From contig NZ_JAPVBI010000002.1 in NCBI RefSeq assembly GCF_026967925.1, positions 1-64,000 on the forward strand: a stretch of 64,000 nucleotides of DNA. Direction: 5' to 3'. A program made the position numbers and the translations under genes. Below the pieces are notes generated by a model. That model searched no databases, was not told where the DNA came from, and saw only the letters and a program-made list of their open reading frames with translations. The stretch comes from Modestobacter sp. VKM Ac-2985 (GTDB taxonomy: Bacteria > Actinomycetota > Actinomycetes > Mycobacteriales > Geodermatophilaceae). Shown piece by piece: positions 4,596 to 18,185 of this stretch; the first letter of the stretch is position 1; each line of letters starts with the position of its first letter.

Positions 4596-4633
4596 GGAAC
4601 TACTTCACCGCTAAGGCAGTTCCCCGCTAGGGT
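4596..4633 (+). promoter_or_regulatory. Operator plus promoter for a leaderless carbamate kinase transcript
   Basis: A 28-nt imperfect inverted repeat occupies 4596-4623: arm GGAACTACTTCA, spacer CCGC, arm TAAGGCAGTTCC (9 of 12 paired). It overlaps a -35 box TTCACC (4604-4609), followed after 18 nt by a -10 box TAGGGT (4628-4633). The ATG of the carbamate kinase gene is only 6 nt further on, so the mRNA would begin at or near the start codon with no Shine-Dalgarno sequence. The same architecture precedes fdrA (13515-13562) with 24 of 28 operator bases identical. This points to one regulator controlling both operons; its gene is not evident in the window. Confidence 0.7.
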
Positions 4634-4639
4634 CACGCA

Positions 4640-5608
4640 ATGGCCCTCCCCCGTCGTGTCGTCATCGCCCTCGGCGGCAACGCGATGACCGGCGCCGACG
4701 GCTCCGCCACGCCCCGCGCCCAGCGTGACGCCATCTCCGCGGCCGCCCAGCACATCGCCGCCGTCGTCGCCACCGGGGCCGAGGTGGTCCTCACGCACGG
4801 CAACGGCCCCCAGGTCGGCAACCTGCTGGTCAAGAACGAGCTGGCGGCGCACGTGGTCCCACCGGTCCCGCTGGACTGGAACGTCGCCCAGACCCAGGCG
4901 ACCATCGGCTTCACCCTCGCCGACGAGCTGGACGCCGCACTGGCCGCCCTCGGCTCCCCCCAGCGCACCGCTGCGCTGGTCACCCGCACCCTCGTCGACC
5001 CCGCCGACCCGGGGTTCGCGACGCCGTCCAAGCCGGTCGGCCGGTATCTGCCGCGCGACGAGGCGCAGCGCTTCATCGATCTCGGGCAGAACTGGGAGGA
5101 CCGCGGTGAGCGCGGCTGGCGGCGGGTGGTCGCCTCGCCGGAGCCGCTGTCGGTGGTCGACGTCCCGGCCATCTCGGCGCTCAGCGGGGCCGGGTTCGTG
5201 GTCGTCTGCGCCGGCGGGGGCGGCGTGCCCGTGGTCCCCGGCGCCGCGGACGGCGACGCGCTGATCGGTGTCGAGGCCGTCATCGACAAGGACCTCACCG
5301 CCGCCCTGCTCGCCCGGGAGCTGCGTGCGGACACGCTGGTCATCGCCACCGACGTCCCGCACGTGATGGTCGACTTCGGCGCTCCGTCGGCCCGCCCGCT
5401 GGCCCGGGTCACCGCCGCCGAGATGCGCGCCCACGCCGAGGCCGGCCAGTTCGCCCGCGGCAGCATGGGCCCCAAGGTCGAGGCTGCCCTCCGGTTCGTG
5501 ACCGACTCCGGGGACGGCCGTCAGGGCGCCCGCGCCGTCATCACCGCACTGCCCCACATCTCCGACGCCGTCGCCCGTGACGACGTCGGCACCGTCGTCA
5601 CCGCATAG
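4640..5608 (+). CDS. arcC: Carbamate kinase
   Basis: A 322-residue amino-acid-kinase-fold enzyme that transfers phosphate from carbamoyl phosphate to ADP, giving ATP plus carbamate (NH3 + CO2). Family signatures: VIALGGNAM near the N terminus, [31 protein letters not shown] and [12 protein letters not shown]. Length is typical. No arginine deiminase or catabolic ornithine carbamoyltransferase is nearby. Instead the gene sits 11 nt before a ring-opening amidohydrolase and shares an operator with fdrA. In allantoin-degrading bacteria such an isolated kinase works with FdrA/DUF1116, so its likely job here is ATP recovery from an N-heterocycle catabolite. It starts as an apparently leaderless mRNA. 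Confidence 0.95.
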
Positions 5609-5619
5609 AAGGAGAAGAC

Positions 5620-6723
5620 ATGCCCGCACCGATCGAGGTCCGCAAGGTCCCGCTGCACAACGTCAGCGACGCCTCCGAGCTGGCCAAGCTCATCGACGAC
5701 GGCGTCATGGAGGCCGACCGCATCATCGCCGTCATCGGCAAGACGGAGGGCAACGGCGGGGTCAACGACTACACCCGGATCATCGCCGACCGCGCGTTCC
5801 GCGAGGTGCTGATGGAGAAGGGCTCGCGCAGCAAGGAGCAGGTCGGGGAGATCCCGATCGTGTGGTCCGGCGGCACGGACGGGGTCATCAGCCCGCACGC
5901 CACGATCTTCGCCACGCTGCCCGAGGACTCGGTGGAGAAGACCGACGAGCCGCGGCTGACCGTCGGGTTCGCGATGAGCGAGGTGCTGCTGCCCGAGGAC
6001 ATCGGCCGGCTGACCATGGTGGAGAAGGTGGCCGAGGGGGTGCGCCGGGCGATGGCCGAGGCGGGCATCACCGACCCGGCCGACGTCCACTACGTGCAGA
6101 CCAAGACGCCGCTGCTGACCATCGAGACGATCCGCGAGGCCAAGTCCCGCGGACAGGAGACCTACTACGACGAGCCGCACGGCTCGATGGACCTCTCCAA
6201 CGGCACGACGGCGCTGGGCATCGCGCTGGCGCTCGGCGAGATCGAGATGCCGGAGCAGAAGCAGGTCATGCGCGACTTCGACCTGTTCAGCGCGGTCGCC
6301 TCCTGCTCCTCGGGCGTCGAGCTGGACCGGGCGCAGATCATCGTCGTCGGCAACGCCCGCGGCCACGGCGGCGACTACCGGATCGGTCACTCGGTGATGA
6401 CCGACGCCCTCGACCAGGACGGGATCTGGAACGCCATCCGGGACGCCGGCCTCGACCTGCCGGAGCGCCCGCACACCTCCGACCTGGGCGACGACCTGGT
6501 CAACGTCTTCCTCAAGTGCGAGGCCGACCCGACCGGCTACGTGCGCGGTCGGCGCAACGCGATGCTCGACGACTCCGACGTCTTCTGGCACCGGCAGATC
6601 AAGGCCACCGTCGGCGGCGTCGCCGCCTCGGTGACCGGCGACCCCGCGGTGTTCGTGTCGGTGGCCGCCGTGCACCAGGGTCCCTCCGGCGGCGGCCCGG
6701 TCGCCGCCATCGTCAAGGCCTGA
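5620..6723 (+). CDS. Ring-opening amidohydrolase (cyanuric acid hydrolase / barbiturase family)
   Basis: A 367-residue member of the AtzD/TrzD/barbiturase family, which hydrolyses the ring amide of cyanuric acid (to carboxybiuret) or of barbiturate (to ureidomalonate). The fold has three repeated units, each supplying a Lys-Ser pair. The Ser-containing turns are visible as [24 protein letters not shown] and [15 protein letters not shown]; the Lys-containing segments as [22 protein letters not shown] and RQIKATVGG. The gene has its own ribosome site (GAAGGAG) and is cotranscribed with carbamate kinase. No other s-triazine genes are present, while a molybdenum hydroxylase operon shares the operator, so barbiturate is the better guess. 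Sequence alone does not decide. Confidence 0.9.
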
Positions 6724-6728
6724 GCGAC

Positions 6729-6758
6729 GGCGCCGGCCGGGTCAGCCCGGCCGGCGCC
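6729..6758. terminator. Strong bidirectional hairpin between convergent genes
   Basis: A perfect 13-bp stem (6729-6741 with 6746-6758) with a TCAG loop lies between the stop codons of the amidohydrolase (plus) and the 2-oxoglutarate oxygenase (minus). There is no T-run, which is usual for high-GC actinobacterial terminators. Confidence 0.7.
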
Positions 6759-6759
6759 C

Positions 6760-7800
6760 TCAGCCGCGGGCGGCGAGCACGCGGGCGGCCTCCCGCTCGG
6801 CGGCGGTGTTGACCACCCCCGCCCGGGAGCCGCGGAGCTTGGCGGCGATGTGCTCACCGATCGTCACCGGCAGGTAGCGGGGCTCCTCGCCCCGCCCCAC
6901 ACAGCTCGGGAGCGGCGCGATCACCGCCTCGACGTCCCCGTCGTGGAAGAAGGCGGCCGACCTGCGCCGCTGGATGGTGCCGTCGACGACCGGTGGCGTG
7001 ACCCGGTGCAGCGTGGACGTCCACCGGTCGTTGGTCAGCCGGGCGGTGACGTCGCCCAGGTTGACGAGCAGGGCGCCGTCCGCGGGCAGCACGTCGTGCC
7101 AGCCGCCGTCCGCGTCGAGCACCTGCAGGCCGGCCACCTGGTCGGCCCAGAGCACGGTGACGATCCCGTAGTCGGTGTGCTCCCCCATCCCGGTCAGCTC
7201 GCCGTCCAGCCGGACCGTGCCCTCCGGCAGCGCGTAGTTGTTCATCCGCAGCACGTCCAGTGAGTGCCCGGTCAGGTCGGCGAAGAAGTCCGCCGGCAGC
7301 CCCAGGGCGTCGGCGAAGACGCGGGTGAGCACCCGGGCGACCCGGCCCGCCTCGCCGAACCACGCCTCGACGGCGGGCCGGAAGCCGGGGACGTCGGGCC
7401 AGGTGTTCTCCGCGTAGTCGGGCTGGGGCAGTCCGGGCGCGTGCGGGTAGCTGGCCTGCGAGGCGCCCACGTTGAACGCCTCGAAGAAGTCGTTCATCCG
7501 CGTCGCGGACTCCACCCCCAGGGACAGCGAGAGCGACTCGCTCTTCGGTGGGCTGTAGCCCCGGTTGACCTCCGGGGGCGTGCGCCAGGCCTGCTTGGCC
7601 TCCAGGGGCTGACCGAAGAAGCCGTCCATCGCTGCGGCCAGGCCTTCGGCCACCCGGCCGGGAACCCCGTGGCCGACGACCTGGATGAAGCCCACCGTGC
7701 AGCAGGCCTCGTCCATCGCCGCCGCCACGGCGGCCTGCTCCTGGACGGATCCGCCGAGCACGTACGGGGAGATGTCGACGACCGGGACGCTGAAGCTCAT
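6760..7800 (-). CDS. 2-oxoglutarate/Fe(II)-dependent oxygenase (isopenicillin N synthase-like)
   Basis: A 346-residue non-haem iron oxygenase of the DIOX_N/2OG-FeII_Oxy type. The N-terminal domain has the family's VPVVDISPY and VVGHGVP. The iron triad is H208-x-D210 (GEHTDYG) and H265 (STLHRV), and the co-substrate-binding R-x-S is at residues 279-281. Natural products, plant hormones and, in fungi, thymine (thymine 7-hydroxylase) are substrates in this superfamily. Its convergent neighbour is the barbiturase-like gene, so a pyrimidine substrate is possible but unproven. Start ATG at 7800 is chosen because the frame upstream has no family similarity. Confidence 0.88.
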   Translation of the reverse strand: MSFSVPVVDISPYVLGGSVQEQAAVAAAMDEACCTVGFIQVVGHGVPGRVAEGLAAAMDGFFGQPLEAKQAWRTPPEVNRGYSPPKSESLSLSLGVESATRMNDFFEAFNVGASQASYPHAPGLPQPDYAENTWPDVPGFRPAVEAWFGEAGRVARVLTRVFADALGLPADFFADLTGHSLDVLRMNNYALPEGTVRLDGELTGMGEHTDYGIVTVLWADQVAGLQVLDADGGWHDVLPADGALLVNLGDVTARLTNDRWTSTLHRVTPPVVDGTIQRRRSAAFFHDGDVEAVIAPLPSCVGRGEEPRYLPVTIGEHIAAKLRGSRAGVVNTAAEREAARVLAARG

Positions 7801-7842
7801 GCGCCGAGGGTGACCGGGCCGTGTTGCCCGGGCGTCACGGCA

Positions 7843-7875
7843 GGATCGCGTCCACGTGGCCCGCCGACGCGATCC
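7843..7875 (-). terminator. Hairpin downstream of the Ohr gene
   Basis: A perfect 10-bp stem (GGATCGCGTC at 7843-7852, GACGCGATCC at 7866-7875) with a 13-nt loop. It lies between the stop of the Ohr gene (minus) and the start of the oxygenase gene, where it can insulate the two minus-strand units. Confidence 0.55.
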
Positions 7876-7885
7876 TGGCGCTCCG

Positions 7886-8308
7886 TCAGGCGACCGTGGT
7901 CTCCAGGGTGACCGGGACGTTGCCGCGGGTGGCGTTGGAGTAGGGGCAGACCTGGTGCGCGGCCTCGACGAGCTGGTCCGCGGTCGCCTGGTCGACGCCG
8001 CCGAGCTCGACGTGCAGGGCGACCTCCAGACCGAAGCCACCGGCGTCGTTCGGCCCGATGCCGACCTCCGCGGTGACCCCGGCGTCACTGATCGGCGCCT
8101 TCTGCGTGCGGGCCACCATCTTCAGGGCGGACAGGAAGCACGCGGCGTAGCCGGCGGCGAACAGCTGCTCGGGGTTGGTGGCGCCGCCCTCGCCACCCAT
8201 CTCCTTCGGCGTGGCCAGGTCGAGGTCGATCAGACCGTCGGAGGAGCGGGTGTGGCCGTTGCGGCCGTCACCGGTGGCGGTGGCGACGGCGGTGTAGACG
8301 CTGGGCAT
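7886..8308 (-). CDS. ohr: Organic hydroperoxide resistance protein (Ohr)
   Basis: A 140-residue OsmC/Ohr-fold thiol peroxidase that reduces organic and lipid hydroperoxides. The two redox cysteines are C57 (AAGYAACFLSAL) and C121 in the Ohr-specific context CPYSNATRGN, which separates it from OsmC. Length is typical. The start ATG at 8308 is preceded by a GGAGG-type ribosome site. No OhrR-type MarR regulator is adjacent. The gene is divergent from the SpoIIE-type phosphatase gene, with 182 nt between. Confidence 0.93.
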   Translation of the reverse strand: MPSVYTAVATATGDGRNGHTRSSDGLIDLDLATPKEMGGEGGATNPEQLFAAGYAACFLSALKMVARTQKAPISDAGVTAEVGIGPNDAGGFGLEVALHVELGGVDQATADQLVEAAHQVCPYSNATRGNVPVTLETTVA

Positions 8309-8490
8309 GAGCGGTCCTCCAGGTGGTTGGGTGTACCACCCACTGTGCACCCAGCGGACCGGCCGCACGTCCGTCCCGAGGCCGATCTCGCTCACACTCC
8401 TCGGGTGCGTGGTCCTGACCAGTGGGTTCGCTACCTTGATCGCTGCGCCGGACCCGCGGGGGGAGACCGGACGGACGAGGAGCTGCAGCA

Positions 8491-9576
8491 GTGACCAGGT
8501 CGCAACGCCTGCAGCGGGCACTGCCCGCAGGGGTGCTGGCCGTCGTGACCGTGACCGACGTCGTCAGTGGGCCCGAGCAGGTGGTCCTCGGCCTGGTCGT
8601 CATGGCGCCGCTGCTGGCGGCGACGACGCTCGGCAGGCGGGGCACGGTGGGCTACGCCGTCCTGGCCCTCGTGCTGGCGGCGCTGCTGGGCGTCTACGAC
8701 CAGCAGTACACCGCGAGCACGCTGCTCCCCCAGGTCGTCCGGTTGCTGGCGGTGGCGGGCGGCGGCGTCCTGGCGGTGGGCGCCTGCAGCCTCCGGCTGC
8801 GCCGCGAGGCCCAACTGGCCCGGCTGAGCGCGCAGGCGGCGACCACCGAGGCGGCGCTGCAGACGGCCGAGGCGCTGCAGCTGAACCTGCTCGGGCCGCC
8901 GCCGCGGGTGGCGGGCCTGGAGTCGGCCGTGCGGTACCTGCCGGCCAGCCGGCACACCCAGGTGGGCGGCGACTGGTACGACGCGTTCCCCCTCCCGGAC
9001 GGGAGCACCATGCTGGTCATCGGGGACGTCGCCGGCCACGACGCGCCGGCGGCCGCCACCATGGCACAGGTCCGGGCGATGCTGCGGGCGATCGCCCAGC
9101 GCTCGACCGGCTCGCCGGCGGAGGTGCTGTGCGCCCTGGACGAGGTGCTCGCCGGTCTGGAGCTGCACACCCTGGTCACGGTGATCGTGGCGCAGGTCGA
9201 CGCACCGTCGTCCGCTGCGGGCACGCGGCGGTTCCGGTGGTCCAACGCGGGCCACCCGCCACCGGTGCTGGCGAGGGCCGGCGGCGAGGTCGGCCTGCTG
9301 GCGGCCGCCCCCGAGAGCCTGCTCGGCATCGCACCCGGCGTCCGGCGGACCGACCACACCCTGGAGCTGGGCGCCGGCGACACGCTGCTCTTCTACACCG
9401 ACGGGCTGGTCGAACGCCGCGGCGCACCGCTCGACGACGGGCTGACCTGGGTGGTCGGCGAGCTGACCAGGACCGGCCGGGAACCCCTCGACCGGCTCTG
9501 CGACGACCTGCTGGGCCAGCTCGGTGGGCGGGTCGACGACGACGTGGCCCTGCTCGCCGTCCGCGTCCCCGGCTGA
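8491..9576 (+). CDS. Membrane-anchored SpoIIE-type PP2C protein phosphatase
   Basis: A 361-residue protein. Residues roughly 10-95 hold several hydrophobic membrane segments, a short coiled linker follows, and the C-terminal ~230 residues form a PP2C-like Ser/Thr phosphatase of the RsbU/SpoIIE group. Metal-binding motifs: GGDWYDAFPL, VIGDVAGHD, and the C-terminal DDDVALLAVRVP; LLFYTDGLVE is also diagnostic. Such phosphatases dephosphorylate anti-anti-sigma factors in partner-switching stress or development pathways. No anti-sigma or STAS partner is in the window. Start GTG 8491 follows GGACGAGGAG. Confidence 0.9.
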   Translation: MTRSQRLQRALPAGVLAVVTVTDVVSGPEQVVLGLVVMAPLLAATTLGRRGTVGYAVLALVLAALLGVYDQQYTASTLLPQVVRLLAVAGGGVLAVGACSLRLRREAQLARLSAQAATTEAALQTAEALQLNLLGPPPRVAGLESAVRYLPASRHTQVGGDWYDAFPLPDGSTMLVIGDVAGHDAPAAATMAQVRAMLRAIAQRSTGSPAEVLCALDEVLAGLELHTLVTVIVAQVDAPSSAAGTRRFRWSNAGHPPPVLARAGGEVGLLAAAPESLLGIAPGVRRTDHTLELGAGDTLLFYTDGLVERRGAPLDDGLTWVVGELTRTGREPLDRLCDDLLGQLGGRVDDDVALLAVRVPG

Positions 9577-9594
9577 GCACGGGGCACCGGCGGG

Positions 9595-10290
9595 TCAGGC
9601 CGCGCGGCCGCGGCCCTCGGCCTTGACGTCGGCGGCGTAGCGGTCGACGTACTCGGCGCCGGACAGCCGCTGCAGCTCGGCCATGACCCGGTCGGTGACC
9701 TCCCGCAGCGCCGCGCCGTCGTCGGCCGGCCCCGGGTGGTCGGAGAAGTCCAGCGGTTCGCCGATCCGGACGACCACCCGGCCGGGCCGGGGCAGCCGGG
9801 CACCCGGGGGCATGAGCGCCCGGCTGCCGATCACGGCGATGGGCACGACCGGGGCCCCGGTGGACAGCGCCAGCCGGGCCACCCCCGTCTTGCCGCGGTG
9901 CAGCCGGCCGTCCGGCGACCGGGTGCCCTCCGGGTAGATGCCCAGCACCCCGCCGTCGGCGAGCACCTCCCGGCCGCGCCGCAGGGCGGCCTCGGCGGCC
10001 GTGGCCCCGCCGCGGTCCAGCGGGACCATGCCGATGCTCTCCAGCAGCAGGCGCATCGCCCGCCCGAGCAGCCCGGGGCGAGTGAAGTACTCGCTCTTGG
10101 CCAGGTAGGTCACCCGGCGGTGGCTGAGCACCGGGGGGAAGAACTGGTCCAGCGTGGAGGGGTGGTTGCCGGCGAGGATGACCGGCCCGGTGGCCGGGAG
10201 GTGGTCGGCCCCCTCGACCTGCGGCCGGAACAGGCCCAGGACCAGCGGACGCACGAGCGCGCGGACGACCGGGTATGCGTCCACGCTCAC
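9595..10290 (-). CDS. 1-acyl-sn-glycerol-3-phosphate acyltransferase family protein (PlsC-like)
   Basis: A 231-residue PlsC-type acyltransferase that transfers acyl groups to lysophosphatidic acid or a related acceptor at the membrane. The catalytic motif is NHPSTLDQ (N-H-x4-D), followed by YLAKSEYF and the substrate-binding IYPEGTRSPDG. The GTG start at 10290 overlaps the stop of the upstream metallothionein-like gene by 4 nt (GTGA), so the two are translationally coupled. A longer reading of the same frame extends through the neighbouring gene and is not credible. Confidence 0.88.
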   Translation of the reverse strand: MSVDAYPVVRALVRPLVLGLFRPQVEGADHLPATGPVILAGNHPSTLDQFFPPVLSHRRVTYLAKSEYFTRPGLLGRAMRLLLESIGMVPLDRGGATAAEAALRRGREVLADGGVLGIYPEGTRSPDGRLHRGKTGVARLALSTGAPVVPIAVIGSRALMPPGARLPRPGRVVVRIGEPLDFSDHPGPADDGAALREVTDRVMAELQRLSGAEYVDRYAADVKAEGRGRAA

Positions 10291-10550
10291 CGTTCGTCCG
10301 GTGCCCGGCCGGCATGGTCGACCAGCTGCTCGGCGCTGTCCTGCCCGTGCATCCGGGCGCAGGACGCACAGCAGAAGAAGACGCCGTCGGCCTCGACGCC
10401 GTGGCCGACCACCTTCACGCCGCAGTGCTCGCACACCGGCGCCAGGGCGTGGATGGCGCACTCGAAGCTGTCGAAGGTGTGCACCGCGCCGGCAGCGTGC
10501 ACCTCGAAGCTGAGCCGGTAGTCGTTCCCGCAGACCTCGCAGCTGGCCAT
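10287..10550 (-). CDS. Cys-rich metallothionein-like zinc protein
   Basis: An 87-residue protein with paired cysteines: CEVCGNDY at the N terminus, FECAIHALAPVCEHCG in the middle and FFCCASCARMHG near the end, plus several histidines. This matches small actinobacterial proteins commonly labelled prokaryotic metallothionein, presumably binding zinc or another soft metal in the cytoplasm. The ATG at 10550 follows GGAGGGTGGGGCC. Its stop overlaps the start of the acyltransferase gene. The link between a metal-binding protein and a lipid acyltransferase is unexplained. Confidence 0.75.
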   Translation of the reverse strand: MASCEVCGNDYRLSFEVHAAGAVHTFDSFECAIHALAPVCEHCGVKVVGHGVEADGVFFCCASCARMHGQDSAEQLVDHAGRAPDER

Positions 10551-10640
10551 GGCCCCACCCTCCGTCGTCGCGGCCGGTTCCGACCGCCGTCGGCGACTAC
10601 CCGCTGACCCGGGGAGGTGAACGAGCACCGTCCAGGCCCG

Positions 10641-12053
10641 TCAGGCCGCCCGGGACTCCTCGGCCAGCGCCGCCAGCGCCTGCTCGAAGCATGCCTGCGG
10701 CGGCTGCACCAGACCGGCACCGACCTGGCCCGTGCCGGCGACCCGGCCGGCCATGCCGGTGTTGATCTGCGGCAGCCAGCCGGTGCGGGCGACCTGGAGG
10801 ACGTCGATGCCGGTCGGGGAGCCGCGGAAGCCCATGATCGGGATCTGCATCGCCGGGTTCTCGGCCAGCGTCAGCTGGTACATCCGCTCGGTGGTCGCCA
10901 GCGCGTCGGGGACGGTGCCACCGACGAACCGGACGATCGCCGGTGCCGCGGCCATGGAGAACCCGCCGACGCCGTAGGCCTCCATGATCGCGGAGTCGCC
11001 GATGTCGGGGTTGGCGTCCTCGGGGCCGTAGTCGCCGAGGTAGAGACCGACCGGGGTGTTGGCCGGGGCGGTGAACCAGCGGTCCCGGGTACCGGCGGTC
11101 TGGATGCCGAACTCGGTGCCGTTGCGCGACAGCACGGTGACCATCGTCGAACCCGGGACGTCGCGGGCGGCGTCCATCGCCAGCTTCGCCGTGGGCATGC
11201 CGAGGTTCAGGTAGAAGTGTTCGTTGCCGCCGATGAAGCGCAGCACCTCGGCGATGTCCTGGGCCGGCGCGTCGACGCCGACGATGGACGGCGACAGCTC
11301 GCGCAGCGCCATCAGCGAGCCGGCGCGGTTGCGGTTGTGCCCCTCGTCGCCCATCTGCAGCATCTGGGCGAGGATCGCCTTGACGTCCAGCGGCTCCGGC
11401 CGGCTCCGGACGGCGCGCTGGAGCACCGGGCCGAGCACGTCGCGCATCCAGGCCAGCCGGGTGAGCACCTCGTCGTTGTAGGCGCCCATCCGCAGCACCT
11501 TGCCCAGGCCCTCGTTGAGGTTGCACCAGGCCTGCCCGCCGTTGGCCGGGTCCTCCAGACACCACATCCACATCGAGGGGCTGGTCACCCCGGCCATCGG
11601 GCCGACCGTGCGGTGGTGGTGGCAGGGGTCCAGCGCGATCTCCCCGGCGGCCAGGATCCGCTCGGCGTCGGCGACGTCGGTGGCCCAGCCCTCGAAGACG
11701 CAGGCGCCGATGAGCGCCCCGCGCATCGGGCCGGAGGCGGTCTCCCAGGTCAGCGGCGGTCCGGAGTGCAACAGCATCCGGTCAGGCAGGTCGAGGACCT
11801 CGCGGGCGGGCCGGACGTCGACCAGCAGCGAGCCGGCGGCGAGCACCCGCTCCACGGCGACCCGGTTGGCGGCCGCCCGGCGCGGGTCCAGCGCGAGCTG
11901 GGTGAGGTCGTCGGGGCTGCCGAAGCCCGGCGGGCGCCAGTCGACGTCGGTGACGCTCGCGCCCTGCTGCCGGAGCGCGGTGGAGAAGACCTCGACGCCG
12001 GCGGCGACGATGGACGGCGGGGCGGACAGCAGTCCGCCGAGGGGCTCACTCAT
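10641..12053 (-). CDS. DUF1116 protein (YlbE/AllG-like subunit of a carbamoyltransferase)
   Basis: A 470-residue protein of the DUF1116 family (E. coli YlbE, renamed AllG). There it acts with FdrA (AllF) and a third subunit (YlbF/AllH) as oxamate carbamoyltransferase, splitting oxalurate into oxamate and carbamoyl phosphate. Family-typical stretches: PLTWETASGPMRGALIGAC, a His-rich DPCHHHRTVGPMAGVTSPSM, DEGHNRNRAGS and NEHFYLNLGMPTAK. Its start overlaps the end of fdrA by 8 nt, so the pair is coupled. No obvious ylbF-like third gene is present. In this region the donor is more likely a barbiturate-derived ureide than oxalurate, because no allantoin genes are seen. Confidence 0.88.
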   Translation of the reverse strand: MSEPLGGLLSAPPSIVAAGVEVFSTALRQQGASVTDVDWRPPGFGSPDDLTQLALDPRRAAANRVAVERVLAAGSLLVDVRPAREVLDLPDRMLLHSGPPLTWETASGPMRGALIGACVFEGWATDVADAERILAAGEIALDPCHHHRTVGPMAGVTSPSMWMWCLEDPANGGQAWCNLNEGLGKVLRMGAYNDEVLTRLAWMRDVLGPVLQRAVRSRPEPLDVKAILAQMLQMGDEGHNRNRAGSLMALRELSPSIVGVDAPAQDIAEVLRFIGGNEHFYLNLGMPTAKLAMDAARDVPGSTMVTVLSRNGTEFGIQTAGTRDRWFTAPANTPVGLYLGDYGPEDANPDIGDSAIMEAYGVGGFSMAAAPAIVRFVGGTVPDALATTERMYQLTLAENPAMQIPIMGFRGSPTGIDVLQVARTGWLPQINTGMAGRVAGTGQVGAGLVQPPQACFEQALAALAEESRAA

Positions 12054-13515
12054 GGCCGTCTCCGATCAGGCTGAGGGCGTGGCGGGTGGCGGCGGCGTTG
12101 GAGGCGAAGACCGCGGCGCCGGCCTCGGCGAGGGCGTCGGCCTGCCGGGACCAGCACTGGGGGTCCGCCTCGGTGCCGACCAGCGCCACGACGGTGGGCA
12201 GGCCGGCCGACCGGATCGCCGGGACGAGGGCGGCGGCGGGGTCGGGGTCGGCGCCGTGGCCGAGGACGACGTCGATCAGCAGGACGGCGGGCTCTCCGCT
12301 CTCCGCCAGGCCGGCGATCGCCTCCAGCCGCAGCGTCGGGTCGATCATCGGGTGCGCGCGGCCCACGGTGAGCGCGTCGTCGCCGAAGTCGACGACCACG
12401 TGCCCGCGGGCGGCCAGGTCGGTGCCGAGGTCGAGCTCCGGACGCAGCGGGGTGTTGGAGCGGATGTCGCCCAGGGCCGGGGCGGCGATCAGCATCGTCT
12501 CGTCGGCGAGGGTGCCACCGGAGTAGAAGCCCTTGAGGACGGCGCCCGCGGGCACGGCGTCCGCGGTCCCGGGCCGGGAGGGCCACGCGGGGACGGCGAC
12601 GCCCAGGTCAGCGAGGAGCGCCTCCACTGCGGCGGTGAGGTCGGGCTGCTCCGGGCTGAGCGCGGCGGAGCGCACCGGGACCGACAGGCCGGCCGCCACC
12701 TCCTGCACCCGGGCGGCGACCGCGGGCGCCGGCGGCTTGGAGACCAGCAGCACCCGCTCGGTGGCCGGGTCGGCGTCCAGCGCGGCCAGCGCGTCGAGGG
12801 TGGCCAGCCCGCCGACGGCCTCGGAGAGGTCGCGACCGCCGACGCCGAGCACGTGCGAGACGCCGACGCCGGCCGCGTCGAGCAGGCAGCTGACCTGCTG
12901 GGCGCCGGTGCCCGACGCCGCGACCAGGCCCACCGGGCCACGCCGGACGACGTTGGCGAAGCCGAGGGCGAGGCCGGAGACGATCGCCGTCCCGCAGTCC
13001 GGGCCCATCACCAGCACGCCGGCGTCGTGCGCGGCCCGCTTGAGCGCGACCTCGTGCTCGACCGGCACCCCGTCGCTGAAGATCAGCACCGACCGGCCGG
13101 CGGCGATGGCGTCGGCGGCCTCCGCGACCGCGTACGGCCCGGGCACGCTGATGATCGCCAGCGCCGGGTCGTCCGCGCCGTCCAGGCCGGCGCCGATCGT
13201 GCGGGCCGGGATGGTCTGCGCCTCGCCCCGGTCGGCGCGGGCGGTGAGCGCGGCGTCGACGGCGGCGACCGCGGCGGCCAGCTCGGCGTCGTCGGTGGCG
13301 GTCAGCGCGATGAGCAGCTGGTCGGGCTTGGCCTCGCCGTCGGGCGCCAGGCCCATGCCGGCGGCGAGCTCGAGGTTCAGCGGCGTGGCCATCGCGACGA
13401 CGACGGTGTGCACGCCGGGGCGGTCACCGATCTCGCGACTGACCTGCATGAGCCGGACGGAGTCGGCGTAGACGCCGCTGCGCAGGGAGACGTGCCGGAC
13501 TGGACTGTCGCTCAC
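12046..13515 (-). CDS. fdrA: FdrA family protein (AllF-like carbamoyltransferase subunit)
   Basis: A 489-residue member of the FdrA family, which has the CoA-ligase/ATP-grasp-like fold of succinyl-CoA synthetase subunits. Seen: HVSLRSGVYADSVRLMQVS, MATPLNLELA, VMGPDCGTAI and LKGFYSGGTLADE, all FdrA-typical. In E. coli FdrA is a subunit of the oxamate carbamoyltransferase of allantoin degradation. The start GTG at 13515 fits a leaderless transcript from the TAGCGT box at 13524-13529. The longer frame upstream would cross the operator and is rejected. The gene is divergent from the molybdenum hydroxylase operon and coupled to the DUF1116 gene. Confidence 0.9.
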   Translation of the reverse strand: MSDSPVRHVSLRSGVYADSVRLMQVSREIGDRPGVHTVVVAMATPLNLELAAGMGLAPDGEAKPDQLLIALTATDDAELAAAVAAVDAALTARADRGEAQTIPARTIGAGLDGADDPALAIISVPGPYAVAEAADAIAAGRSVLIFSDGVPVEHEVALKRAAHDAGVLVMGPDCGTAIVSGLALGFANVVRRGPVGLVAASGTGAQQVSCLLDAAGVGVSHVLGVGGRDLSEAVGGLATLDALAALDADPATERVLLVSKPPAPAVAARVQEVAAGLSVPVRSAALSPEQPDLTAAVEALLADLGVAVPAWPSRPGTADAVPAGAVLKGFYSGGTLADETMLIAAPALGDIRSNTPLRPELDLGTDLAARGHVVVDFGDDALTVGRAHPMIDPTLRLEAIAGLAESGEPAVLLIDVVLGHGADPDPAAALVPAIRSAGLPTVVALVGTEADPQCWSRQADALAEAGAAVFASNAAATRHALSLIGDGHE

Positions 13516-13523
13516 CTGGCGGG

Positions 13524-13562
13524 ACGCTACCGGAGAAACTGTCTCAGCGGTGAGGTAGTTCC
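13524..13562 (-). promoter_or_regulatory. Operator plus promoter for leaderless fdrA mRNA
   Basis: On the minus strand a 28-nt inverted repeat (13535-13562) has arms GGAACTACCTCA and TGAGACAGTTTC with spacer CCGC. It overlaps a -35 box CTCACC and is followed, 19 nt after that box, by a -10 box TAGCGT (13524-13529). The GTG start of fdrA lies 8 nt beyond, so the transcript has essentially no leader. Operator and layout match the element before carbamate kinase at 4596 (24 of 28 bases identical). Confidence 0.7.
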
Positions 13563-13593
13563 AGGCCGCATTGCAGCGACGAAGATTTAGCGC

Positions 13594-13605
13594 TGAGGTA
13601 CTTCC
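13594..13605 (+). promoter_or_regulatory. Second operator half-site toward the molybdenum hydroxylase operon
   Basis: The 12 bases TGAGGTACTTCC match the plus-strand right arm of the 13535-13562 operator in 11 of 12 positions and are preceded by the same GCG-type spacer, but the partner arm is poorly conserved. It sits about 45 nt from the full site (arm to arm) and 75 nt before the coxM-like start, so it could be an auxiliary site for control of the divergent operon. I could not assign a clear promoter for that operon. Confidence 0.4.
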
Positions 13606-13679
13606 GTGTCCCCGGATCCGGTGACACAGTTGCGCCTTCCCCGATCCGTAGGCCCGCACTCGGAGGTGACCCGCACCCG

Positions 13680-14555
13680 GTGAAGCCCGCTCCGTTCAGC
13701 TATGCCGACCCGACCTCGGTCGAGGAGGCGCTCGACGTCCTGACCGCGGAGGGCGAGGGGGCGAAGGTGCTCGCCGGCGGGCAGTCGCTGCTCCCCCTGC
13801 TCTCGATGCGCCTGGCCGCGCCCACCACCCTGGTGGACATCAACCGGGTGCCCGGGCTCGACCAGATCTCCGCCGGCCCCGACGGGGTGCGCGTGGGTGC
13901 ACTGGTCCGGCACGCCCAGCTGCTCGCCTCGGCCGAGGCGGCCGGCGTCCAGCCCCTGCTCGGCCGGGCGACGGCGAACGTCGCACACCCGGCCATCCGC
14001 AACCGCGGGACGACGGTGGGCTCGATCGCGCACGCCGACCCCTCGGGTGAGATGACCGCGGTGCTGGCGCTGACGGACGGTTCCGTCACGGTCGCGACGC
14101 CCGACGGCCGCGAGACGGTCGGCTGGGCCGACTTCTTCCTCGGCCCGCTGGAGACCTCGGTGCACGGCCCGGCCGTCGTCCTGGACGCCTTCTTCCCCGC
14201 GCTCCCAGAGCGGTCGGGCACCGCGTTCGCCGAGATCTCGCGACGCAAGGGCGACTACGCCGTGTGCGGGGCCGGCGTGGTCGTCACGCTGGACGACGAC
14301 CGGCGGGTCAGCTCCGCCCGGGCCGCCTACCTCTCCGTCGGGCTGGTGCCCGAGGTGCACGACCTGACCGACGCCGTCGTCGGCCAGCCGGTCGACTCCG
14401 CGGACTGGGCTGCGGCCGGCGAACTGGCCCGCGGCAAGGTCGACCCGGACGGCGACCTGCACGCCAGCGCCGACTACCGGCGGCTGCTGGTCGCGACCCT
14501 CACCGCCCGCACGCTGGCCGACGCCGGCGCCGAAGCAGCCAGGAGGACCGCGTGA
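13680..14555 (+). CDS. Molybdenum hydroxylase FAD-binding subunit (CoxM/XdhB type)
   Basis: A 291-residue FAD subunit of the xanthine oxidase/CO dehydrogenase family; it passes electrons from the iron-sulfur subunit to the external acceptor. FAD-binding motifs are AGGQSLLPLLSMRL near residues 32-45 and TTVGSIAHADPSGEM around residues 115-130. The GTG start at 13680 follows CGGAGGTG. The gene is the first of four genes with 4-nt overlaps (M, S, L, then CoxG). It is divergent from fdrA across a shared operator region, which ties this hydroxylase to carbamoyl-transfer chemistry. Confidence 0.92.
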   Translation: MKPAPFSYADPTSVEEALDVLTAEGEGAKVLAGGQSLLPLLSMRLAAPTTLVDINRVPGLDQISAGPDGVRVGALVRHAQLLASAEAAGVQPLLGRATANVAHPAIRNRGTTVGSIAHADPSGEMTAVLALTDGSVTVATPDGRETVGWADFFLGPLETSVHGPAVVLDAFFPALPERSGTAFAEISRRKGDYAVCGAGVVVTLDDDRRVSSARAAYLSVGLVPEVHDLTDAVVGQPVDSADWAAAGELARGKVDPDGDLHASADYRRLLVATLTARTLADAGAEAARRTA

Positions 14556-15115
14556 CCGAGGTTCGTACCGAGCGGGCGATCTCCGTCGTCGTCAACGGTG
14601 TTCCACGTGAAGCCACGGTGCCGGTGCGCTGGCTGCTGTCCGATGCGCTACGGCACGGGTTCGGGCTGACCGGCACCCACGTGGGCTGCGAGCACGGCGT
14701 CTGCGGGGCCTGCACGGTGCTGGTCGACGGGCAGCCGACCCGCTCCTGCCTGGTGCTCGCCGTCCAGGTCGACGGCCGCGAGGTGACCACCGTGGAGGGC
14801 CTGTCCCGGTCGGACCACCAGGGCGGGCAGGTGCTGCACCCGATCCAGGAGGCGTTCCGGGAGTGCCACGCGCTGCAGTGCGGGTTCTGCACGCCGGGCT
14901 TCCTGACCACGATCGCGGCCGGCCTGGACGCCCGGGACCCGTCGGTGGAGATCACCGAGGAGGAGGTCGACGAGATGGTCGGCGGCAACCTGTGCCGCTG
15001 CACCGGCTACGCCAACATCAAGAAGGCCTGCCGGCACGCAGCAGCGACCATGCGCGAGGCTGCCACCCCGACAGAGATGGCCATCTCTGCCGGGGACGAG
15101 GAGGCAGGGCGGTGA
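14552..15115 (+). CDS. Molybdenum hydroxylase [2Fe-2S] subunit (CoxS/XdhC type)
   Basis: A 187-residue protein carrying the two [2Fe-2S] clusters of the enzyme. The plant-ferredoxin-type cluster ligands are C46, C51, C54 and C66 (GCEHGVCGAC, then RSCL); the second cluster uses C110, C113, C148 and C150 (QCGFCTPGF and CRCTGY). It is slightly longer than usual at both ends. The start GTG overlaps the upstream stop by 4 nt, and its stop overlaps the large-subunit start in the same way, so stoichiometric synthesis is expected. Confidence 0.93.
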   Translation: MTEVRTERAISVVVNGVPREATVPVRWLLSDALRHGFGLTGTHVGCEHGVCGACTVLVDGQPTRSCLVLAVQVDGREVTTVEGLSRSDHQGGQVLHPIQEAFRECHALQCGFCTPGFLTTIAAGLDARDPSVEITEEEVDEMVGGNLCRCTGYANIKKACRHAAATMREAATPTEMAISAGDEEAGR

Positions 15116-17529
15116 CGACCAAGTTGTTCGGGGAGCCGGTGCGCCGGCGGGAGGACGCCCGGCTGATCATCGGCCAGGGCCGCTACCTCGACGACATCGG
15201 CTCCGGCGCCTACGAGGCGGCGTTCGTCCGCAGCCCGTACGCGCACGCCCGGGTGCTGGACATCGACGTCAGCGCGGCGATGGACGTCGACGGCCTGCTG
15301 GCGATCTACACCTACGAGGACCTCACCGGCCCGATGGCCGAGCCGCTGCCGGTGCTGATCCCGCACCCGCAGCTCACCGCCCCGCGCACCGGCTACCCGC
15401 TGGTGAAGGACGTCGCCCAGCACGTGGGCGAGCCGATCGTGATGGTGGTCGCCACCGACCGGTACATCGCCGAGGACGCCGCCGGGCTGATCGAGGTCAG
15501 CTACGAGGAGCTGCCGGTCGTGGTGGGCGTCGACGCGGCCGAGGCCGCCGAGCGCACCGTGCACGACGACGTCCCGGACAACGTCGCCGCCCGGCACCAC
15601 CAGGAGACCGGCGACGTCGAGGCGGCGCTGGCCGCCAGTGCGCACACCCTGTCCTTCACCCAGTACTTCGAGCGCAGCGCCTCCATGCCGATGGAGGGCA
15701 AGGGCGTGCACGCCCGCTGGGACGACGCCGACTCCTCGCTGCGGGTCTACTCCTCCACCCAGGCCTCGACGTCGGTGCGCGCGGCGATCGCGGCCAAGCT
15801 CGAGCTGTCGATGGAGAAGGTCGAGGTCATCGCCCCCGACGTCGGCGGTGGGTTCGGCGTGAAGATCGTGCACCCGTGGCCGGAGGAGCTGCTCGTGCCG
15901 ATGGCCGCTCGGCTGCTGGGCCACGAGGTGAAGTGGACCGAGGACCGGCGCGAGCACTTCATCTCCAGCGCGCACGAGCGTCAGCAGCGGCAGGAGATCA
16001 CCGTCGGGTACGACGACGACGGGCGGATCGCGGCCCTCGACGTCCTCGTCTGGCACGACAACGGCGCGTACACGCCCTACGGGATCATCGTGCCGATCAA
16101 CACGGCGACCCAGCTCTGCGGGCCGTACGACATCCCGGTCTACCGGGCCCGGGTGAACAGCGTCTACACGAACACCGTCATCGTCACCCCGTACCGCGGG
16201 GCCGGGCGGCCGCAGGGCACGTTCGCGATGGAACGCACGATGGACCGGATCGCCCAGGCGCTCAGGATCGACCGCGCGCTGGTCCGGGAGCGGAACCTGA
16301 TCCAGCCCGACCAGTTCCCCTACGACTGGGGCCTGACGTTCCAGGACGGCCGGCCGCTGATCTACGACTCCGGCGACTACCCGGCGATGATGGCCAAGCT
16401 GAAGGTGCTGGTCGACTGGGACGGGTTCGCCGAGCGGCGAGCCGCGGCCGAGGCGCGCGGGAAGCTGCTGGGCATCGGGATGGCGCCCTACGTCGAGGGC
16501 ACCGGGCCGGGGCCGTACGAGGGCGCGCACGTGCAGGTGCTGGGCAGCGGCAAGGTGCTGGTCTCCACCGGGCTGACCTCGCAGGGCCAGGGGCACGAGA
16601 CGGTGTTCGCCCAGCTGGCGGCCGCGGAGCTCGGGGTCCCCATGGAGGACGTCGTGGTCACCACCGGCGACACCCGGCGCTTCGGGTACGCGGTCGGCAC
16701 GTTCGCCTCCCGGGCCGCGGTGGTGAGCGGCAACGCCGTCGCACTGGCGGCGCGCGGGGTGAAGGAGAAGGCGCTGCGGATCGCCGCCGAGGTGCTGGAG
16801 GCCGACCCGGCCGACCTGGAGATCGACGAGGGTCTGGTCCAGGTCAAGGGGACGCCGGGCGCCTCCATCCCGCTGCGCACGGTCGCCGTCCTGTCCAACC
16901 CGCTGCGGTACGCCTTCGACGAGGCGGCGCGGCAGGCGACCCAGTTCTCCGGGCCGGGCGACGACTCCAAGCCGCCGGTGGCGGTCGGGGACGCGCCGGG
17001 GCTGGAGCACACCGACTACTACTCCCCGCTGCGCTCGACCTTCGCCTCCGGTGCGCACGCCGTGGTGGTGGAGATCGACCCGGCGACCTGGGAGATCGCG
17101 ATCGAGCAGTACGCGGTGGTGCACGACTGCGGCACGATCATCAACCCGATGATCGTCGAGGGTCAGGTGCACGGCGGTGTCGCGCAGGGCGTGGGCGGGG
17201 CGCTGTACGAGCGAATGGCCTACGACCGCGACGGGCAGCTGACCAACGCCTCGTTCATGGACTTCCTGATGCCGTACGCCTCCGAGGTGCCCGACGTGGA
17301 CATCGACCACCAGTCGACGCCGTCGCCGCTGAACGAGCTGGGCATCAAGGGCGCCGGCGAGGCCGGCGTCATCCCCGGCTCGGCGGCGATCGCCTCGGCG
17401 ATCGAGGACGCGGTGGGACGGCGGATCGCGGCGATGCCGATCTCCCCCACCGAGCTGTACGACCTGGTGCGCTCGGACGCCGAGCGCGTGACCAACTCTT
17501 CTCCCCACGACTCTGGAGCGATGGCGTGA
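15112..17529 (+). CDS. Molybdenum hydroxylase catalytic subunit (CoxL/XdhA type)
   Basis: An 805-residue molybdopterin-cytosine-dinucleotide subunit. Seen: GGGFGVK, GLTSQGQGHETVF, and the active-site Glu in KGAGEAGVIPGS around residue 749. The motif that in true CO dehydrogenase reads AYxCSFR is here PYRGAGR (near residue 361), so this is not a form I CO dehydrogenase but a hydroxylase of form II or another heterocycle/aldehyde substrate. Given the divergent FdrA/DUF1116 genes and the barbiturase-like enzyme under the same operator, a uracil/thymine-type dehydrogenase that forms barbiturate is the leading guess. Confidence 0.92.
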   Translation: MTTKLFGEPVRRREDARLIIGQGRYLDDIGSGAYEAAFVRSPYAHARVLDIDVSAAMDVDGLLAIYTYEDLTGPMAEPLPVLIPHPQLTAPRTGYPLVKDVAQHVGEPIVMVVATDRYIAEDAAGLIEVSYEELPVVVGVDAAEAAERTVHDDVPDNVAARHHQETGDVEAALAASAHTLSFTQYFERSASMPMEGKGVHARWDDADSSLRVYSSTQASTSVRAAIAAKLELSMEKVEVIAPDVGGGFGVKIVHPWPEELLVPMAARLLGHEVKWTEDRREHFISSAHERQQRQEITVGYDDDGRIAALDVLVWHDNGAYTPYGIIVPINTATQLCGPYDIPVYRARVNSVYTNTVIVTPYRGAGRPQGTFAMERTMDRIAQALRIDRALVRERNLIQPDQFPYDWGLTFQDGRPLIYDSGDYPAMMAKLKVLVDWDGFAERRAAAEARGKLLGIGMAPYVEGTGPGPYEGAHVQVLGSGKVLVSTGLTSQGQGHETVFAQLAAAELGVPMEDVVVTTGDTRRFGYAVGTFASRAAVVSGNAVALAARGVKEKALRIAAEVLEADPADLEIDEGLVQVKGTPGASIPLRTVAVLSNPLRYAFDEAARQATQFSGPGDDSKPPVAVGDAPGLEHTDYYSPLRSTFASGAHAVVVEIDPATWEIAIEQYAVVHDCGTIINPMIVEGQVHGGVAQGVGGALYERMAYDRDGQLTNASFMDFLMPYASEVPDVDIDHQSTPSPLNELGIKGAGEAGVIPGSAAIASAIEDAVGRRIAAMPISPTELYDLVRSDAERVTNSSPHDSGAMA

Positions 17530-18185
17530 ACCTGGACGGCAGTGCGGTCCTCTCGGCGGCACCGGAGCAGGTCTGGGCGGTGATCACCGACCCGGCTGTG
17601 CTGGCGCGGACCATCCCGGGGTGTGAATCGCTGCAGCAGGTCGGCGAGGACAGCTACACGATCGTCGTCTCGGCCGGGGTGGGCGCGATCCGCGGGAAGT
17701 ACGCGGGCGAGGTGCGGTTGAGCGACCTGGCCTTCCCCTCCTCCTACGTCATGCACGCGTCCGGCTCCGGTGGGCCGGGGTCCGTGCGGGCCACCGTGCA
17801 GATCGAGCTCGTCCCCTCGGGTGAGGGCACAGAGCTGACCTACTCGGCGGACGCCGTGGTCGGTGGCGCGGTCGCGGGCGTGGGGCAGCGGATGATCACC
17901 GGCGTCGCGAAGAAGATGGCCGGGCAGTTCTTCTCCGCGATCGACAAAGAGCTGGTGGAGCCGAACGTGGTGGCCGAGGTGGTGGCCCTCCCGGTCACGC
18001 ACGACGGTTCCGCGGAACCGTCTGCTGCCACCCCCACTGCGCCGGTGACCTACGCCAAGACCCCGTCCGCGGAGGGTGGGTGGGTACCGACCGAGGCACG
18101 GCCCTTGCTGGTCGGCGCCGCTGGCGGCGGCCTGCTCACCCTGCTCGGCGTCTGGATCGGCTACCTCCTCGGCCGCCGCGGCTGA
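17526..18185 (+). CDS. CoxG-like SRPBCC protein with C-terminal membrane anchor
   Basis: A 219-residue protein. Residues 1-150 form an SRPBCC (START-like) domain typical of CoxG, seen as GSAVLSAAPEQVWAVITDP, RTIPGCESLQQVG and GVGQRMITGVAKKMAGQFF. A Pro/Ala-rich linker follows and then one hydrophobic helix at about residues 193-214. CoxG recruits CO dehydrogenase-type enzymes to the inner membrane, so this protein probably tethers the preceding hydroxylase so electrons enter the respiratory chain. Start GTG overlaps the upstream stop by 4 nt. The 3' end overlaps a gene remnant on the other strand. Confidence 0.88.
   Translation: MNLDGSAVLSAAPEQVWAVITDPAVLARTIPGCESLQQVGEDSYTIVVSAGVGAIRGKYAGEVRLSDLAFPSSYVMHASGSGGPGSVRATVQIELVPSGEGTELTYSADAVVGGAVAGVGQRMITGVAKKMAGQFFSAIDKELVEPNVVAEVVALPVTHDGSAEPSAATPTAPVTYAKTPSAEGGWVPTEARPLLVGAAGGGLLTLLGVWIGYLLGRRG

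Follow-up and report, generated by a model that had tools for sequence, protein, structure and literature searches.

A Modestobacter barbiturase locus predicted to encode an energy-conserving route of pyrimidine catabolism

Introduction

Which pathway is encoded by a locus that joins a ring-opening amidohydrolase to a carbamate kinase (CK), to the FdrA and AllG (DUF1116) proteins and to a CoxMSL-type molybdenum (Mo) hydroxylase with CoxG? This gene set lies in a stretch of 64,000 nucleotides from the soil actinobacterium Modestobacter sp. VKM Ac-2985, the whole of which we call the window (contig 2, positions 1-64000; GC content about 73%; genome size 4.7 Mb). A first-pass annotation of the window had read the set as an ATP-yielding pyrimidine pathway, a reading that our analysis supports through the active-site residues of the barbiturase, the clustering of AllG and CK with barbiturase, the contrast with rhodococci and the AllG tree. 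From these sequence comparisons we consider it probable that the locus encodes the core of an energy-conserving oxidative pyrimidine catabolic pathway.

The known oxidative pyrimidine pathway ends in malonate and urea via ureidomalonase (PMC3758960). In the pathway that we propose, the CoxMSL Mo hydroxylase, with CoxG, would oxidise uracil (probably also thymine) to barbiturate (5-methylbarbiturate), and barbiturase, as its active-site residues suggest, would open the ring to ureidomalonate. FdrA-AllG, beside which AllH stands in most genomes outside the window's family, would then phosphorolyse ureidomalonate with inorganic phosphate to malonamate and carbamoyl phosphate; gene linkage, phylogeny and chemistry all point to this step, the counterpart of the cleavage of oxalurate to oxamate and carbamoyl phosphate. 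CK, as a member of its family, would use carbamoyl phosphate and ADP to form ATP, NH3 and CO2. Finally, an amidase would convert malonamate to malonate, which a class III CoA-transferase and a carboxyltransferase-type enzyme would lead into central metabolism.

Such a pathway would likely be a form of oxidative pyrimidine catabolism not described before. In a literature search, with most subscription journals outside its scope, no paper mentioned barbiturase together with carbamate kinase; among the papers listed, none connected barbiturase with FdrA/AllG or with carbamoyl phosphate, and none proposed the pathway. Below, loci are cited by L numbers and genomes by G numbers, G000 being the window's own genome.

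Results

Gene layout and a shared operator

Genes in the window were called from open frames and family-model searches, and each gene named by the first-pass annotation (CK, the amidohydrolase, DUF1116, FdrA, CoxMSL and CoxG) was present as an open frame.

4596-4623, no strand: palindromic operator copy 1, 28 bp, centre about 30 bp ahead of the CK start
4640-5608, plus strand: carbamate kinase (PF00696), function predicted from its family
5620-6723, plus strand: predicted barbiturase, AtzD/TrzD-family ring-opening amidohydrolase with Bar-type residues
10641-12053, minus strand: AllG (DUF1116), subunit of the predicted ureidomalonate carbamoyltransferase (PF06545, 314 bits)
about 12046-13515, minus strand: FdrA/AllF, subunit of the predicted ureidomalonate carbamoyltransferase; start codon uncertain, open reading frame (ORF) open to 13659
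13535-13562, no strand: palindromic operator copy 2, 28 bp, centre about 34 bp ahead of FdrA and 131 bp ahead of CoxM
13578-13605, no strand: degenerate third operator-like element on the CoxM side, with 9 mismatches, the limit of the scan
13680-14555, plus strand: CoxM-like flavin adenine dinucleotide (FAD) subunit of the Mo hydroxylase, from family matches
14552-15115, plus strand: CoxS-like 2Fe-2S subunit, with a presumed GTG start
15112-17529, plus strand: CoxL-like molybdopterin subunit, candidate uracil/thymine dehydrogenase (motifs PYRGAGR and GAGEAG)
about 17526-18185, plus strand: CoxG-like protein, with a presumed start

The CK scored 281.6 bits against NF009007, above the cut-off of 266, and 322.6 bits against TIGR00746, under the cut-off of 358.25. 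FdrA scored 393.8 bits against NF004760, under the cut-off of 433, and 235.5 bits against the FdrA structure PDB 3dmy.

The first-pass annotation had tied the region together by a shared operator, and this held up. The 28-bp pattern matched the window twice and 100 shuffled sequences not once; a related pattern, at up to 3 mismatches, retrieved just the two known sites from the 4.7-Mb genome, with 0 matches for a reversed-pattern control. Relatives were scanned at up to 9 of 28 mismatches, a loose limit that admits some background matches. At this limit, 15 of 19 family loci (L047-L065) had the operator no more than 150 bp before CK, and 10 of these 19 had it at that distance before FdrA; elements similar to the degenerate third one were seen in L048 and L050. 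The 21 non-family loci (L066-L086) gave 2 matches, neither of them fronting CK or FdrA, and no match at up to 9 mismatches accompanied the AllH, PucR and NCS2 genes of L004 and L005. Because the same operator fronts both the CK operon and the FdrA/Cox region and recurs in the family, we regard the two as tied. PucR-type regulators are candidates for binding it, since they flank cluster genes in other genomes.

The amidohydrolase carries the active site of a barbiturase

The amidohydrolase matched PF09663 (491 bits) and TIGR02714 (574 bits), and its closest solved structure was barbiturase PDB 5hwe at 633 bits, six other structures reaching at most 332 bits. Five positions have been described as separating the cyanuric acid hydrolase AtzD (Arg195, Thr321, Arg325, Gly345 and Gly346) from Bar, which in AtzD numbering has Asn195, His321, Lys325, Val345 and Ser/Ala346 (PMC3758960). 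The window protein has N, H, K, V and A, that is, 5 of 5 Bar-type residues and 0 of 5 of the cyanuric acid hydrolase type, within the AtzD/Bar family (Peat group VI). Judged by these residues and the best structure, the amidohydrolase is a barbiturase, as the first-pass annotation had read it.

The same signature is common among relatives. Across 148 loci with a match (loci rather than genomes, several per genome), 138 had NHKV followed by A or S, 5 NHKVG, 2 RTRGG, 1 SMKSG and 1 IHKVA, and 1 was unreadable. The nearest named loci are those of two Modestobacter strains, with barbiturases 98% identical to that of the window.

Barbiturase, carbamate kinase and AllG occur together across genomes

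The first-pass annotation had suggested a search of genomes for co-occurrence of these families without allantoin genes. In a sample of 397 genomes of the order, AllG was found in 109 and PF09663 in 103. Counting AllG of the high-scoring class (AllG-high, at least 280 bits), 91 genomes had both AllG and PF09663, 4 AllG only (G007, G050, G095 and G147), 12 PF09663 only and 290 neither. Within the family AllG was present in 60 of 63 PF09663 genomes, and 31 of the 91 genomes with both lie outside it, across 15 genera. We give this spread more weight than the raw co-occurrence test, because the test ignores relatedness. The co-occurrence lists of the order and the counts of the phylum were compiled by hand.

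A phylum sample of 296 genomes held 18 with PF09663, 21 with AllG-high and 14 with both. AllG-high stood without PF09663 in G007, G467, G482, G486, G517, G585 and G606, and PF09663 without AllG-high in G021, G630, G640 and G641. Clusters were fetched from 9 of the 14 genomes with both (11 stretches; the remaining five are G000, G536, G537, G547 and G716). FdrA, AllG, AllH and barbiturase occurred together in 9 of 9, CK in 8 of 9 (none in L250) and Cox genes in 8 of 9 (none in L248, which starts at a contig end). The arrangement is well illustrated by L249, in which about 15 kb hold, in order, an amidase-like gene (36%), CoxG, CoxL, CoxS, CoxM, an NmrA-like frame, AllG, FdrA, AllH, CK, a weakly similar permease, barbiturase and a divergent PucR.

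Next we examined gene neighbourhoods at 80 named barbiturase loci, the best 80 of 543 confirmed, using tblastn with reference proteins; the counts are lower bounds, as many stretches stop at contig ends. CK was found in 74 of the 80, and in all 74 the gap between CK and barbiturase was 15-153 bp. FdrA (at least 40% identity) was present in 33, AllG in 33, a permease in 32, CoA-transferase in 28, CoxM in 24, HyuB in 19, CoxL in 16 and amidase (at least 45%) in 9. The six loci without CK were four from rhodococci, L100 and L137; the last has no CK near its barbiturase, yet AllG is present in its genome. Non-family loci also carry an NCS2 permease, whose top models (RutG and uracil permease) both scored under their cut-offs, together with HyuA-HyuB, a class III CoA-transferase, a fused carboxyltransferase and an amidase.

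Rhodococcal loci serve as a natural contrast

Ureidomalonase was discovered in Rhodococcus. Four rhodococcal loci were available, three from Rhodococcus, including R. erythropolis NBRC 15567, and one from Rhodococcoides fascians. R. erythropolis CCM2595 is given as the same strain as JCM3132 (PMC3961730), whose barbiturase was included in the phylogeny of PMC3758960. The rhodococcal loci resemble that of the window: the barbiturase of R. erythropolis NBRC 15567 is 80% identical to the window's, an NCS2 permease, CoA-transferase, carboxyltransferase, PucR and CoxMSLG belong to the shared set of barbiturase-locus genes, and Cox genes were seen in 3 of the 4 stretches. They differ in that CK, FdrA and AllG were found in 0 of the 4 loci, and AllG in 0 of the 4 genomes by whole-genome search, and in that an amidase directly follows the barbiturase (in L131 at 11233-12726). 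These amidases form a separate clade (4 rows, support 100/100). Accompanying this difference in genes, the known end of the Rhodococcus pathway is malonate plus urea, while the cut predicted for the window is phosphorolytic and would yield ATP.

The whole-genome search for AllG covered 36 of the genomes of the 80 named loci, several of which overlap the set of 397. Among the 32 that are not rhodococcal, 29 had an AllG match, 26 of them at 280 bits or more; of the other three, G404 and G405 are cut by contig ends and G430 has the lower-scoring class only. No AllG match was found in G431 (Modestobacter muralis, L100) or in the metagenome-assembled G408 (2.6 Mb) and G432 (2.4 Mb); the loci of G408 and G432 do carry CK, while L100 does not. 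A CK gene next to barbiturase therefore usually accompanies AllG in the genome, and the rhodococci have neither.

A separate observation concerns L195 (G379, contig 1, 4.38 Mb), where a second barbiturase-family gene stands with a carboxyltransferase and an amidase and with no CK in the stretch, an arrangement like that of rhodococci; G379 additionally carries AllG, some 5 kb away from a different PF09663 gene.

AllG of barbiturase genomes forms its own group

In E. coli, AllFGH converts oxalurate to oxamate and carbamoyl phosphate (PMC11326118). Ureidomalonate is oxalurate with one more CH2, so the same cut would give malonamate, and we predict from sequence and linkage that FdrA-AllG is a ureidomalonate carbamoyltransferase. 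The window system has in common with E. coli AllFGH and AllK the AllF, AllG and carbamate kinase families and, it would seem, the type of bond cut, the terminal carbamoyl of an N-acylurea. It differs in its predicted substrate, in its AllG, which falls in another group, and in its setting, with barbiturase rather than with allantoin genes.

In a tree of 46 AllG rows, the 30 rows from barbiturase genomes formed one group (support 96/91). This tree left out the rows from L007-L026 and most of those from L087-L125, and G007 and G095 were its sole AllG-high genomes without PF09663; the cleanness of the group is partly a sampling effect, because few such genomes were in the tree. With 16 rows added, a group of 41 was recovered at a Shimodaira-Hasegawa-like approximate likelihood ratio test (SH-aLRT) value of 87, 39 of its rows coming from barbiturase genomes and two from G050 and G147. 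Outside it fell the AllG of E. coli, the FdrA-linked AllG of G007, of G095 and of the second copy of G115, and that of G517, as well as a separate group made up of the AllG of G486, G585, G606 and G467. Which groups are sisters is unsure because the deep branches are long. Furthermore, 11 AllG positions had one residue throughout the first 30 rows and a different one in each of 4 outgroup rows, among them position 436, which is Gly in the window protein and His in the four outgroup sequences.

A lower-scoring class of AllG was also observed, in L174, L181 and L179, with no FdrA match among the called frames; its neighbours are NCS1 permease genes and genes resembling glutamine synthetase (with a peptidase C26 as well in L181) or, alternatively, E1 dehydrogenase/transketolase and pyridoxal-phosphate (PLP) enzyme genes.

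AllH lies elsewhere in the genome

No AllH was found in the window. The genome has one copy (PF11392), on contig 1 at 1.828 Mb, by hisG (named by eye), PucR and an NCS2 permease.

L001/L005, 1049-2044, minus strand: AllH-PucR next to hisG, own genome

Among 150 order genomes, AllH was present in 30 outside the family, and 28 of these had AllG at most 3 kb away, 27 of the high class (counted by hand). The clusters of G149 and G478 are examples with an adjacent AllH. In G017, AllG, FdrA, AllH, PucR, NCS2, Cox, HyuAB, CoA-transferase, CK and barbiturase all lie between c54 and the hisG-like c55, and the AllH-PucR-NCS2 genes of the window's genome lie on the opposite side of the gene matching c55. 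Because the full run of G017 abuts the same hisG-like gene as the own-genome AllH, the comparison suggests that AllH kept its ancestral position while the other cluster genes moved. The AllH sequences of the family are nested among those of the clusters (91/93), on long branches.

The Mo hydroxylase is a candidate pyrimidine hydroxylase

The window CoxL has the motif PYRGAGR and lacks the form I motif (A/S)YRCS(F/L)R, as do 38 of 38 distinct CoxL sequences from the fetched loci (at least 600 aligned amino acids and at least 50% identity), 33 of which have the GxGE(A/G)G motif. PYRGAGR is close to the AYRGAGR of form II CO dehydrogenase, and the window CoxL passes the cut-off of NF040766 (aerobic CO dehydrogenase large subunit); it differs from form II CoxL in its gene linkage, which points to a pyrimidine hydroxylase. 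The activity of form II enzymes is itself described as unresolved (PMC13240472). As Cox genes are linked to barbiturase, R. erythropolis included, a uracil/thymine hydroxylase is our best guess for the window enzyme.

Purine genes and a downstream branch elsewhere in the genome

The first-pass annotation had seen no allantoinase or allantoate genes, which is true of the window but not of the genome. Contig 1 holds, at 2.4-13.2 kb, urease genes, allantoinase and allantoicase genes whose scores exceed curated cut-offs (allantoinase TIGR03178 at 564.9 bits, cut-off 357.85) and an enzyme of the xanthine dehydrogenase (XDH) type. A contig 3 protein scored 411.5 bits against NF006771 (allantoate amidohydrolase subfamily; cut-off 399) and 354.1 against the AllC model TIGR03176, under its cut-off of 597.75. 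Ureidoglycolate dehydrogenase AllD had no match in the whole genome (one E. coli query protein). The purine and urea cluster extends over L209 (G000 contig 1, 2.4-14.7 kb), where the ORF at 13335 is guanine deaminase-like by eye.

Genes that could serve the malonate branch are also present. An amidase at contig 2, 325 kb, belongs to the same subfamily as the amidase of FdrA-AllG clusters, which in L066 and L194 directly follows FdrA-AllG, and is a candidate malonamidase. Relatives of the CoA-transferase and carboxyltransferase (63-64% identical) adjoin each other at contig 1, 661-664 kb; in several relatives the malonate-branch genes lie inside the cluster.

Alternative explanations

Several observations weigh against the proposed pathway. 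Three genomes of the same genus (G182, G225 and G391) keep barbiturase, permease, CoxMSLG and HyuA with no CK in the stretch, HyuB being seen in two of the three stretches, and have no AllG in the genome. The AllG of G050 and G147 falls in the barbiturase-linked group, yet neither genome has PF09663, and an amidase follows AllG in G050. HyuAB has no place among the proposed steps, though it recurs in barbiturase clusters; it may provide an alternative hydrolytic step or act on a different ring. The first-pass annotation had seen no ureidomalonase, but the contig 2 amidase could be one rather than a malonamidase, in a genome that also has urease, and a close relative of it lies beside the CK-less second barbiturase of G379. 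Of 96 family genomes 93 carry AllH, among them all 14 AllG-less members of the sample, and AllH-PucR stands beside hisG, with no NCS2 match there, in 4 of 4 AllG-less genomes fetched (L259-L262). Lastly, NF052395, the equivalog model for cyanuric acid amidohydrolase, scores 474 bits on the barbiturase against a cut-off of 360.

The AllH pattern bears on subunit composition. The first-pass annotation had described FdrA and DUF1116 as acting with a third subunit; an AllH homologue does exist in the genome, but on another contig. As it is retained in AllG-less family genomes, AllH is not clearly the third subunit of the window FdrA-AllG, and the idea of a strictly co-inherited third subunit was not borne out within the family.

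In one alternative, which we consider unlikely, the barbiturase product would be hydrolysed by an amidase or HyuAB to malonate and urea, and FdrA-AllG-CK would act on another ureido compound within the same regulon. This would match the rhodococci, with barbiturase followed by amidase and no AllG, as well as the Modestobacter genomes that carry HyuA(B) instead and the presence in the window's genome of urease and of an amidase related to that of the second G379 barbiturase locus. G227, with Cox-HyuAB-barbiturase-amidase and no AllG in the genome, is a further variant locus. On the other hand, in 74 of 80 loci CK immediately precedes barbiturase, and the rhodococci lack it, a pattern that would be expected if barbiturate itself fed carbamoyl phosphate; the amidase directly after FdrA-AllG fits a malonamidase, and the rhodococcal post-barbiturase amidases are of a separate clade.

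It is quite improbable that FdrA-AllG and CK process oxalurate from purine and allantoin breakdown, as in E. coli, and share only a regulator with barbiturase. E. coli AllFGH has been shown to be an oxamate carbamoyltransferase (PMC11326118), the genome encodes an allantoinase and a protein of the allantoate amidohydrolase subfamily, and PucR-type regulators accompany cluster genes; however, AllG is found together with barbiturase and falls outside the E. coli lineage in the tree, and the purine locus holds allantoicase and urease. The allantoicase/urease route bypasses oxalurate. Since AllD, which makes oxalurate in E. coli, had no match with the one query protein, oxalurate is not an expected intermediate, and with a purine locus of the allantoicase/urease type the oxalurate route is disfavoured.

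That the amidohydrolase is a cyanuric acid hydrolase, with FdrA-AllG splitting 1-carboxybiuret to allophanate and carbamoyl phosphate, is very improbable and was rejected on the active-site residues despite the NF052395 match, the parallel chemistry and the report of allFGH and carbamate kinase beside triuret/biuret genes in nitrifier genomes (PMC12625717), because all five specificity residues are Bar-type, the closest structure is a barbiturase and the RTRGG loci L191 (G021) and L192 (G254) come from genomes without an AllG match. G234, the third genome of their genus, has the lower-class AllG. As NF052395 exceeds its cut-off on the predicted barbiturase, automatic annotation would misname it as a cyanuric acid hydrolase, and the NF052395 and NF040766 labels on the window proteins are likely over-annotation.

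Implications

If the proposed pathway is right, the known hydrolytic ending of oxidative pyrimidine breakdown has an ATP-yielding alternative, the AllFGH carbamoyltransferase family, identified only recently, gains a second substrate, and uracil/thymine dehydrogenase has a concrete candidate gene. Some actinobacterial proteins now labelled "form II CO dehydrogenase" or "cyanuric acid hydrolase" would then likely be pyrimidine enzymes, and such annotations affect counts of CO oxidation and triazine breakdown in soil genomes. More broadly, we lean slightly towards a widespread Actinomycetota route in which ureidomalonate phosphorolysis would yield one ATP per ring, the "form II CO dehydrogenase" would be a uracil/thymine dehydrogenase and the carbamoyltransferase fold would serve further rings, the last because Cox-HyuAB-FdrA-AllG clusters without barbiturase exist.

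Such clusters were seen in L255-L257, from genomes G606, G486 and G585, which have no PF09663 match; they possibly follow the same carbamoyl-harvesting logic for another ring. A HyuA-HyuB pair of the kind that recurs in barbiturase clusters (70 and 78% identical) is also found in the window's own genome, at contig 2, 75.4-79.3 kb (L213, 3377-7323).

Neighbouring genes

An Rfam scan of the window gave 0 matches. Between the two operons lies a further set of frames.

6760-10628: inter-operon frames, namely a 2-oxoglutarate (2OG) oxygenase and OsmC-like, PP2C-like and PlsC-like frames, and an ORF of 113 amino acids

Family searches were made for the 2OG oxygenase and the 113-amino-acid ORF, and the other names were given by eye. 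The 2OG oxygenase and the other frames were dropped as pathway members, being missing from many otherwise syntenic loci. The 2OG-Fe(II) oxygenase (DIOX_N plus 2OG-FeII_Oxy; 6760-7800, minus strand) is convergent with barbiturase and was seen in just some of the family loci, L049, L058, L059, L090 and L093 among them; it might act on thymine or a similar base. Just past the window, L006 1-10687 (contig 2, 64.0-74.7 kb) holds a carboxyltransferase-like frame and, by eye, biotin carboxylase-, acyl carrier protein- and ketosynthase-like frames, perhaps an aromatic polyketide cluster.

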